Positions 3,891-14,397 of a DNA stretch of 35,627 nt are shown in pieces (position 1 is the stretch's first letter; every line of letters starts with the position of its first letter). The DNA comes from Gemmatimonadota bacterium (GTDB taxonomy: Bacteria > Gemmatimonadota > Gemmatimonadetes > Longimicrobiales > Gaopeijiaceae), in the NCBI GenBank assembly GCA_022560615.1, contig JADFSR010000038.1:1-35627 (forward strand). Reading direction: 5' to 3'. A program made the translations under genes and the position numbers. The notes below the pieces were generated by a model. That model made no database searches and was not told where the DNA came from. It worked only from the letters and a program-made list of their open reading frames with translations.

Positions 3891-3913
3891 AGCAGCCCGT
3901 GATAGAAGTACAG
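3891..3913 (+). repeat. Left terminal inverted repeat, copy 1
   Basis: Twenty-three bases ending in AGAAGTACAG. They are the exact reverse complement of 4243-4265. Confidence 0.9.
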
Positions 3914-4242
3914 CGGGCCGCGTTACGGTGCCACGGCCCCAGAGGGCACCCGCGCATTGCGCGGGTCGCGGTGCGACGACGCCATAGCCGTCGCTACGGA
4001 TAGGAGCACCAACGACGGAGATGGGGCCGTGCCACCGTAACCCACGAACTGGTAAGTATCGTCACACTTGGGGTCGGGCGCGACCACCGCTTCGCGGCGG
4101 TGCCCGGTCGCGGCCCAATAGGTCGTCTCTCCTCCTCGGACCACCGCCTTCGGCGGCGGTGCCCGCTACGGCTACGACTCGTCGTCCTTCCTACTCTTGA
4201 TCTCGCGAGACCCCCGGGTACCCGCTTGCGGGTGGCGGTTCA

Positions 4243-4265
4243 CTGTACTTCTATCACGGGCTGCT
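4243..4265 (-). repeat. Right terminal inverted repeat, copy 1
   Basis: Twenty-three bases beginning CTGTACTTCT. They are the exact reverse complement of 3891-3913. Confidence 0.9.
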
Positions 4266-11206: not shown

Positions 11207-12985
11207 TCACTCCGGGAGCGACAAGCTCCAGCGGCCCTGGAAGACCTTGAGATCAACGGAGTCCCCGATCCCCTCGACGAGGCAACGTGTCACGTCCGCG
11301 CTGGTCGGCGCCGCGAGCGCCTTGCGGGCGGCCTCGCGGGCGTCCTCCATGCGGACGTCGCGAATGACCTTCTTGATCTCTGGGAGCGACGGCCACGCCA
11401 CGGAAAGCGCGGTGATATTGAGGCCGAGCAGCAGGAACGCGGCGAGCGGATTGGATGCCATCTCACCGCACACGCTGACCTCGATTCCTGCCGCGCGTCC
11501 GACCCTCGCGACCTGGTGCAGTTGTCGAACAACCGCCGGATGGAACGGGTTGTACAGCTTCGCGAGTCGCGTATTGGTTCGGTCCACGGCGAGCGTGTAC
11601 TGGATGAGGTCGTTGGTGCCGATCGAGAAGAAGTCCGCGTGACGCGCGAGCTCCACGGCTTCGAGCGCAGCCGCCGGCGTCTCGATCATCACACCCAGCT
11701 TGTACCCGGTATTGAAGGGGATCCCGTCTGCTTCGAGCCGAGCCTCCTCCTCCCCAAGCAGCGTGCGCACCTGACGGATCTCGTCTACGTCGTTCACCAG
11801 AGGGAGCATTATGCGCACGTCGCCGTACGCCGTTGCCCTCAGCAGCGCTCGAAGTTGTGTCCGGAACAGCTCTGGTTCGTCGAGGCAAACTCGGATCGCA
11901 CGCCATCCCAGGAACGGGTTCTCTTCCCGGGGCATGTGCAGGAACATCGGGAATTTGTCCCCCCCGAGATCGAAGGTACGGATGTACACGGCACCCTCGG
12001 GAAACGCCTGCGCCGTCGCTTTGTACGCTTCGAACTGTTCTTCCTCACCGGGCATCGTATTGCGTCCTACGACGAGGAACTCGGTGCGGAACAGCCCTAC
12101 GCCGTTGGCTCCGTGCAGCCGCGCCTGCTCGGCTTCGCCCGGTAGGTCGAGGTTGGCGCGCAGCTCGACGAACTGACCGTCCTTCGTCACCGACTCTTGC
12201 TTGGCGATGACCGCGATCTCGCCCTCCCACGCCTCAAGCCGTCGCTGCCGCTGCTGGAAACGCTCCCGGTCGTGTTCGTCAGGGTCGAGGATGATCCGCC
12301 CGATCCGACCATCGACGATCGCGTGCTGACCCTCGACGGCTCTCTTGGACACATCACCCAAGCCGACGACGGCTGGGATTTCCAAAGAGCGTGCGAGGAT
12401 CACCCAGTGCGCGGTGCGGGTCCCCAGATCGGTCGCGATGCCGAGTACCCGCGCCGCGTCGAGATGCACCGTCAGGCTTGGCGTGAGGTTCGTCGCGACG
12501 ATGATCACGGACTCGTCGAGGCCTTCGAGATCGGTGGGGTCGTGGTTCCCCAGGAGGCGGTGAAGGACCCGGATCATGAGATCCTCGAGGTCGTTCAACC
12601 GGTCGAGCACCATCGGATGGGAAGTGCGACTCCACATCGCCTGCAGCTCGAGCATCCGCCATTCGAACGCCCTCTGAGCGTTCAGCCGATTCTCTCGGAT
12701 GTTTCGAACCGTGCCGTCCACCACGGCCGCGTCGTCGAGCATCAGGATCTGGGGATCGAAGATCCGGGCCTCAACCGACCCGAGTCGCGCCTCGGTCCTC
12801 TCCTTTGTCTCAAGTAGCCGAGCTTTCGCCCACTCCCGGGCTTCGTGGAATCGCTCGACTTCATCCGGTGCGTCCGCCTCTTCGAGGATCTCGTGCGGCA
12901 CGACTGGGACGCCCCAGTCGAGCATGAAGACGCGCCCGGAGCCGATCCCCTCGGACGCGGGGGAGCCGTCGAGGATGATCGACAC
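11207..12985 (-). CDS. ptsI: PTS enzyme I (phosphoenolpyruvate-protein phosphotransferase)
   Basis: A 592-residue EI taking phosphate from PEP to HPr. GTG at 12985 gives [20 protein letters not shown], which matches the conserved N-terminal block. The active-site His is about residue 193 in [21 protein letters not shown] (slightly diverged from GGxTSH). The PEP-binding barrel has '[10 protein letters not shown]', '[17 protein letters not shown]' and the catalytic Cys in 'VCGEMASN'. Repeat copy 2 ends exactly at this start. The region now before GTG lacks a Shine-Dalgarno, and the frame stays open into the element as far as an ATG at 13075. The real start or the mode of initiation is therefore uncertain. 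Confidence 0.92.
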
Positions 12986-13009
12986 TAGAAGGCTGTTGAA
13001 GAAGTACAG
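12984..13009 (+). repeat. Left terminal inverted repeat, copy 2
   Basis: Twenty-six bases beginning ACTAGAAGG and ending GAAGTACAG. They are the exact reverse complement of 13349-13374 and overlap the ptsI start codon. Confidence 0.9.
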
Positions 13010-13348
13010 CGGGCCGCCACCCGTGCGAACGCACGGGTACCCGGGATGCCACGGCTCCAGAGGGCACCCGCGCATCGCGCGGGTCGCGGAGCGAGGACGC
13101 CATAGCCGTCGCTACGGCTAGGAGCCCCAACGACGGAGATGGGGCCGTGCCACCCCAACCCACAGAAGCGTTTGTTCATTTCATCTCGGTGTTGGGCGCA
13201 TGGCGGTTGCGCGGTTGATGCTGCGTCTCTCCTCGTCGGACCACCGCCTTCGGCGGCGGTGCCCGCTCGGCTACGACTCCTCGTCGTTCCTTGCCTGAAC
13301 GCGCGCAAGCGCGGGGCACCCACGCTGTAACGTGGGTCGCGCGGCCCA

Positions 13349-13374
13349 CTGTACTTCTTCAACAGCCTTCTAGT
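13349..13374 (-). repeat. Right terminal inverted repeat, copy 2
   Basis: Twenty-six bases beginning CTGTACTTC and ending TTCTAGT. They contain the ptsH stop codon (13370-13372) and are the exact reverse complement of 12984-13009. Confidence 0.9.
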
Positions 13375-13651
13375 TCTCCTGAAAGCCGCGTCCGACGAGG
13401 TCGGCCAGCGCATCGACAGCGTCTCCGGCATCGTCGCCGTGGGCGGCGACTCGTAAGGTGGAGCCGTGTTCAGCCGCCAGCATGAGCACGCCCATGATGC
13501 TCTTCCCGTTCACCTCCAGGCCGTCTTTCTCCACGGTGATCCGTGCGGCGAAGCTGCCCGCGAGCTTTACGAACTCGGCGGCGGGACGTGCGTGCATGCC
13601 GGCGGGGTTCACGATCTCGATCGCTCTCTCGGCACGTGGGAGCTCCATCAT
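13370..13651 (-). CDS. ptsH: Phosphocarrier protein HPr
   Basis: A 93-residue HPr. The EI-phosphorylated His is about residue 20 in NPAGMHARPAAEFV. The regulatory serine is about residue 51 in VNGKSIMGVLMLAAEHG, the site used by HPr kinase, which matches the hprK gene in the same cluster. The ATG at 13651 overlaps the EIID stop (ATGA), with GGGGGTG upstream. The TAG stop lies in the arm of repeat copy 2. A purine-rich CAGGAG near the 3' end was probably the ribosome-binding site for ptsI before the element was inserted. Confidence 0.93.
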   Translation of the reverse strand: MMELPRAERAIEIVNPAGMHARPAAEFVKLAGSFAARITVEKDGLEVNGKSIMGVLMLAAEHGSTLRVAAHGDDAGDAVDALADLVGRGFQEN

Positions 13652-14397
13652 TGTAGCACCCCCCACGCAGCGATGAGCGCGATCGCGGTAACGGTGGCAA
13701 TCGCTGCCGGTCTCCAGATGCGATGCCCGACGACGAGCCCCACCACGAAGCAGACGATCGCAACAACGAGCCAGAGGAGGCCGCCGTCGCTCAGTCCGCC
13801 CCGGCCGGCCAGCAGCACCCCCGCCAGTACGCCGACGAGCAGCGATGCGATCGACTTTATCCGCTCAGCCAGTTGCGCCAATCTCGCTTTGCTGAGCGTG
13901 CGCGCCACGTCGCGCCCGTCGCGGAGCCCGCTGCGGAAGCCCCAGATGCGCAGCGCCAGGTGGCCCGCGTTGTAGAGGACGAGAAAGAGCCCCACGACCA
14001 CCCAGACGGGGAGCCCGATCCACCACATCGCCAGGGCTGCCATCGAGACCGTGGGTAACCATGCCGCCCAGACGAGGGAATCGCCGAGGCCGCCGAGTGG
14101 CCCCCGAACGGCCGTCTTGAATCGGCGCACCGTCTGTGCGTCGGTGCCGTCCGCCTCGAGCCTGAGCGCCGCACCTAGTGCGACGTTCGCCAGATACGGA
14201 TGCGCGTTGAAGTGATCCAGGTGACGTCGCACGGATGCGTCCATGGCCTTTGCATCGTCATCGAATATTCGCCTCAGACCGGGCAGCATCGCAAAGGCGA
14301 AACCCGTACCGATCATCGTGTGGTAGTTCCACGAGCCCTGGACTAGGAACGAGCGCAAGAAGGTCGAGGTGATGGCACGACGCGAGAGAGCGCTCAC
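13648..14397 (-). CDS. PTS mannose-family EIID component
   Basis: A 249-residue membrane component of a mannose/fructose/sorbose-type PTS permease. It opens with 'FLRSFLVQGSWNYHTMIGTGFAFAM' (in part), the characteristic EIID block around residues 14-38. 'HLDHFNAHPYLANVALGAALRLE' (in part) follows, and the 'RFKTAVRGPLGGLGDSLVWA' loop is conserved. Hydrophobic helices occupy roughly 115-155 and 185-249. It is slightly shorter than well-known ManZ proteins. It overlaps both ptsH and EIIC by 4 bases. The substrate cannot be read from the sequence. Confidence 0.9.
   Translation of the reverse strand: MSALSRRAITSTFLRSFLVQGSWNYHTMIGTGFAFAMLPGLRRIFDDDAKAMDASVRRHLDHFNAHPYLANVALGAALRLEADGTDAQTVRRFKTAVRGPLGGLGDSLVWAAWLPTVSMAALAMWWIGLPVWVVVGLFLVLYNAGHLALRIWGFRSGLRDGRDVARTLSKARLAQLAERIKSIASLLVGVLAGVLLAGRGGLSDGGLLWLVVAIVCFVVGLVVGHRIWRPAAIATVTAIALIAAWGVLQ

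Follow-up and report, generated by a model that had tools for sequence, protein, structure and literature searches.

Several described systems offer comparisons for a 383-bp element that lies between ptsH and ptsI, the phosphotransferase system (PTS) genes for HPr and enzyme I (EI), in an uncultured Gemmatimonadota bacterium (GCA_022560615.1, contig JADFSR010000038.1). The 35,627 nucleotides analysed, here called the window, belong to a 4.5-Mb metagenome-derived assembly (G000). MITEPsy1 of Pseudomonas syringae is likewise miniature, inserts at CTAG or YTAA and has ends (GGAAGGTCTGAAAAAGCC) that resemble those of an insertion sequence, as is the case here, but it is 100 nt long, has a reported 4-nt duplication and a single end type, and lacks a large modular core (PMC3189936). 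The Chunjie miniature inverted-repeat transposable element (MITE) of Geobacter uraniireducens also occurs in dozens of copies of varying size; it differs by its sequence, its length (178-235 bp) and its conserved ends, and the review that presents it does not describe end-swapping (PMC10969869). Correia elements of Neisseria, or NEMIS, are TA-flanked MITEs too, with a long terminal stem in transcripts, and can affect neighbouring mRNAs (PMC2229807, PMC10969869). However, they measure 107 or 155 bp, have 24-bp ends and contain no modular hairpin core (PMC2229807), so that a 383-bp element with 34-nt ends does not belong among them; RNase III cutting, demonstrated for them (PMC10969869), is only proposed for the ptsHI element. 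TIME elements are again miniature inverted-repeat elements, which generate mosaic non-autonomous transposons, but their ends are of the Tn3 family (PMC4133298). Finally, in genes 38 and 25 of phage T4 a structure between Shine-Dalgarno and AUG shortens their distance from 22 to 5 nt and from 27 to 11 nt, respectively (PMC3014915). Those are short native hairpins that were tested experimentally, whereas the ptsHI insert is a mobile one of 383 nt whose fold is predicted.

We hold with high confidence that the element is a non-autonomous miniature element (MITE), apparently of the IS1182/IS5 type, inserted at ptsH/ptsI. In mechanism this insertion is ordinary, and the more surprising part is a core that appears to swap its ends. 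The novelty of such an exchange rests on a small search of open papers that may be incomplete.

The ptsH/ptsI junction with and without the element

Both genes lie on the minus strand within a PTS gene cluster that includes HPr kinase and EIIA/B/C/D genes, and the ptsHI mRNA carries the minus strand of the element. The ptsH reading frame (13666 to 13370) terminates with TAG, and the native GTG of ptsI is found at 12985-12983. In a genome of the same genus (G001) the junction is free of the element and reads GAGGAGAAC-TAG-TGTCC, with AGGAG five bases 5' of the ptsI GTG, in a region that is collinear with the window over 1398 bp at 84.5% identity. Joining the flanks of the window without the element yields AGGAG-AACTA-GTG. 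In most other relatives the ptsH-ptsI junction is also short or overlapping, so that relatives do not bear out the long spacer that would have spoken against a coupled junction. The empty junction in G001 therefore identifies the element at ptsH/ptsI as an insertion, and chance is excluded by some 40 more homologues of it elsewhere in this genome. At the level of sequence, these comparisons confirm that mobile DNA was inserted between an overlapping ptsH and ptsI. A first-pass annotation of this DNA had placed an element at the stop-start overlap, claimed that its removal restores TAGTG with AGGAG five bases before GTG, and proposed that close relatives be searched for an empty site; the G001 junction bears out each of these points.

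The boundaries needed revision. An element does lie in the interval first given, 12984-13374, but the element proper extends from 12988 to 13370, and the outer bases consist of the target duplication and further target bases. That duplication had been taken to be CTAG. Comparing flanks across copies ruled out a duplication of 4 bp, the empty site of one copy (L005) being TTAG, and the duplicated sequence is TA (2 bp). Flank bases included, the inverted repeat measures 34 nt and is 97% complementary (12984-13017 against 13341-13374). Among the open reading frames (ORFs) and translations of the window, no transposase ORF falls within the 383 bp. The single-sequence fold of the element is much more stable than that of shuffled sequences (z = -12.5), which a palindrome would lead one to expect, and the insert is as highly structured as had been stated. 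Several features of a MITE are found: the element is short, has terminal inverted repeats and no transposase gene, occurs in multiple copies with a target duplication, and has empty sites in relatives. A point against this reading is that repeats assembled from metagenome data may be polymorphic. Features of the window are collected in Table 1.

Table 1. Coordinates of the element, its parts, the flanking genes and a second family copy (positions of the window).
Feature	Position	Strand	Basis
Second family copy, end type B	3892..4264	none	Empty CTAG site in G001
ptsI (EI) from native GTG	11207..12985	-	Pfam EI match; N terminus same as G001
TA target duplication, ptsI side, within CTAG 12985-12988	12986..12987	none	Flank comparison; empty site in G001
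Mobile element (MITE), 383 bp, end type A	12988..13370	none	Terminal inverted repeats, homologous copies, fixed ends in 36 copies
Terminal inverted repeat, ptsI side, GAAGGCTGTTGAAGAAGTACAGCGGGCCGC	12988..13017	+	Outer part resembles IS1182-type ends of L127
Structured core: nearly invariant blocks and an apical loop that is hypervariable, with optional GGGYACC...GGTSG hairpins around them	13018..13340	-	
In-frame ATG within element, weak alternative ptsI start candidate	13073..13075	-	Open frame
Terminal inverted repeat, ptsH side	13341..13370	-	Fixed ends across copies
ptsH (HPr), abuts element edge	13370..13666	-	PF00381 match
TA target duplication, ptsH side, within CTAG 13370-13373, contributes to ptsH TAG stop	13371..13372	none	Flank comparison
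AGGAG, Shine-Dalgarno of ptsI, now beyond element	13376..13380	-	Conserved in G001

Possible effects on the translation of ptsI

The insertion would have been made by a transposase acting in trans, most likely after the split from the same-genus relative, and its target was the TA within a CTAG overlapping both the ptsH stop and the ptsI start. With G as the first base of the element and C as the last, the TA duplication rebuilds the TAG of ptsH on one side and keeps the GTG of ptsI whole on the other; HPr and EI are thus unchanged in their encoded sequence, and both reading frames are preserved, as had been claimed.

What the insertion did displace, in the linear sequence, is the Shine-Dalgarno, as the first-pass annotation had pointed out: AGGAG is now about 390 nt away, and the sequence directly upstream of the GTG, CAGCCTTCTA, contains no Shine-Dalgarno. 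Together with the high stability of the insert, this speaks for a polar effect, in which the insertion would uncouple ptsI and lower EI, initiation at the GTG would be independent and weak, and the organism would tolerate or benefit from less EI. We take this to be a serious possibility, with a chance a little below even. However, it leaves the folded distance out of account, and EI is intact and 93% identical to its G001 counterpart over the 499 aa compared.

The folded distance, which the first-pass annotation had overlooked, may matter here. In the predicted fold of the element in its context, the foot of the stem made by the paired ends falls exactly between AGGAG and GTG, so that a structure between Shine-Dalgarno and start, as in split ribosome-binding sites, is present in the prediction. 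If the ends pair in this way in the ptsHI mRNA, the effective spacing from Shine-Dalgarno to start would become about 7 nt (AACTA plus TA) instead of 5. EI would then still be made from the native GTG, though probably at lower efficiency, and RNase III might cut the stem. That the stem bridges AGGAG and GTG and holds them at this spacing is a proposal we make tentatively, and would not call probable. T4 genes 38 and 25 are a precedent for such bridging (PMC3014915), but a stem of 34 bp could obstruct ribosomes instead of assisting them, and the GTG is itself partly paired in the predicted fold.

By analogy with the Correia elements in Neisseria, the hairpin could instead be an mRNA processing site for RNase III, separating ptsH from ptsI transcripts and setting their ratio. 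The long stem fits this proposal, as does the reported cleavage of Correia-containing transcripts (PMC10969869), but the ends of the element are unlike those of Correia, and we consider such a role possible though rather unlikely. Still less credit goes to a new start within the element, which had also been suggested. The ptsI frame is indeed open to the ATG at 13075, with no further in-frame ATG, GTG or TTG between it and the native GTG, and initiation there would make EI about 30 residues longer. However, the ATG has no Shine-Dalgarno (its upstream sequence is CTATGGCGTCCTCGCTCCGCGACCCGCGCG) and sits, as read by eye, in the loop of a strong CCCGCGC/GCGCGGG hairpin, and the core has a non-coding character, its copies differing by indels. 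We judge EI to be very improbably made from this codon. The change in HPr:EI ratio that the first-pass annotation had predicted is a hypothesis. Taken as a whole, the earlier interpretation is partly supported.

Copies of the element and their targets

Searching the element against its own genome returned 87 matching stretches, which correspond to about 40 separate copies, and the same core is present in other Gemmatimonadetes assemblies. Both ends could be placed in 36 copies, and in every one of them (36/36) left and right ends agree in type. Among these delimited copies TA flanks the left end in 27, the right end in 28 and both in 22. Just outside the left TA stands a C in 18 copies, a T in 7 and a G in 2, while the element's own outer bases are nearly fixed and its last base is nearly always C, from which it follows that the duplication is TA within a preferred CTAG/YTAR target. 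Empty or near-empty sites exist in G001 for several copies, including the second copy of the window (3892-4264), and such a site is also seen for L005. A tmRNA gene also lies in the window, at 2419-2772 on the minus strand. At L009 (1440-1465) a type C copy directly adjoins a type B end, as though it had gone into the CTAG next to an earlier copy, and two truncated copies of the family (L091, L092) stand next to transposase genes that, by eye, are IS110-like and ISL3-like.

Several copies beyond the one in ptsHI are at or adjoining stop or start codons, which raises the matter of whether such junctions are targeted. CTAG is rare in G001 (752 scored sites per 1.04 Mb), and we used its CTAG sites as the control, with crude ORF-based gene calls throughout. 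Of 33 scored copies, 21 are no more than 12 nt away from a stop or start, versus 49% of the G001 CTAG sites outside genes (p = 0.14), a non-significant excess on which we rejected special targeting of stop/start junctions. Enrichment is confined to sites that touch a stop as well as a start (5/33 copies versus 13/337 CTAG sites, p = 0.015). Copies inside genes, for their part, are depleted (8/33 versus 415/752 CTAG sites, p = 0.0005). The simplest reading is that the stop/start insertions are largely explained by a rare CTAG target that is frequent at gene boundaries, together with selection against gene disruption. A position exactly at the ptsH/ptsI overlap is thus less remarkable than it may seem, because in this GC-rich genus CTAG is rare and often found at stop and start codons.

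One core with several types of end

In an alignment of 32 copies, the core hardly varies in blocks around GACGAGGAGTCGTAG, GACGAGGAGAGACG and GGTGGCACGGCCCCATCTCCGTCGTTGG, a loop of about 25-35 nt is hypervariable, and at several positions some copies have a hairpin that others lack. Nearly invariant blocks flanking a hypervariable loop are what one might expect of a functional non-coding RNA carried by the element as something beyond a mere passenger. We nevertheless find this improbable: no Rfam family matches the element, and the search for promoter-like sites in it found none, returning only two terminator-like matches without a real U tract. Co-changing pairs are mostly located in the element ends, the inner helices scarcely vary, so that covariation is little informative there, and palindromy alone can account for the folding. 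The inner hairpins do not represent a stand-alone family of the REP/BIME kind either, since GGGYACC...GGTSG hairpins occur only 3 times in the 1.04 Mb of G001, versus 2 in a shuffled control.

Around this core we distinguish five clear end types, A (GAAGGCTGTTGAAGAAGTAC), B (GCAGCCCGTGGTAGAAGTAC), C (GAAGGGTGATCGGAAAGGGG), D (GGGAGCCTCTGCACAAGTAG) and E (GCAGGTCGCTGAAAAAGTAC), and one variant of A (A2) that differs by one change. Cores with several of these ends are also found in relatives across the family and the order. For each main type, ends that are alike by eye flank a transposase gene of this genome or of a relative (L127 for A, L112 for B, L138 for C, L116 for D, L128 for E). With NCBIfam models, the transposase of L138 exceeds the IS1182 cut-off and that of L116 the IS5 cut-off, while that of L128 is over the cut-off for IS5 and under the one for IS1182. 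In a tree built from cores without their ends, no fewer than 11 changes of end type are needed, whereas 5 could have been enough; the starred branches alone require at least 3 changes for C and at least 4 for A. The outer 22 bases contain 8 departures from the type consensus that are identical in both ends of a copy and 16 that occur in one end only, and by our calculation from these counts, chance alone would give about 0.1 identical double changes. Type A ends also occur in another genus (G033), where the interior between them reads differently.

These data make it likely that one palindromic core has repeatedly been joined to ends of various elements of the IS1182 and IS5 types. Several points weigh on the other side. 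The transposases of L112 and L127 have IS1182 as their best NCBIfam match but fall under the cut-off; L127, the one with type A-like ends, comes from another genus and its transposase ORF is truncated; and in this genome no autonomous element was found that is intact and has ends identical to type A. The core tree is a quick one, and recombination may blur it. Subtypes shared by inheritance among several copies would also yield symmetric changes in the ends.

Other sources of the ends were considered and rejected. The TA/CTAG target suggested an IS630 origin, but the IS630 elements found carry different ends. Among orphan type A ends, candidates for an autonomous element, C16 is a solo end, whereas C89 and C90 adjoin, as families read by eye, an IS110-like and an ISL3-like gene, respectively. 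Two further groups of elements were seen alongside the family. Six loci in G081 and G033 (L161, L170, L176, L179, L181, L183) have type A ends and a different interior of about 268 bp, and in G037 an element about 1.6 kb long is present four times (L132, L140, L143, L145), with ends like CTAGGAGTCTGCGCCGCAG and CTAG at each flank.

A broader picture, which we offer as quite unlikely in its entirety, would make the core an end-generalist parasite that repeatedly takes matched end pairs from IS1182/IS5-type transposons, while fold-back conversion or template switching keeps its two arms alike. Its terminal stem would render insertions at coupled stop/start junctions nearly neutral by keeping the Shine-Dalgarno beside the start codon.

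The matched empty and filled junctions within one genus are a clean natural experiment, on two proteins of a pathway that work together, and they make it testable whether a translationally coupled junction can take up a hairpin insertion and stay coupled. The family, in turn, prompts one to ask by what route a miniature element exchanges its two ends together for those of another transposon group, and such joint switching would explain how one element escapes the loss of its transposase.
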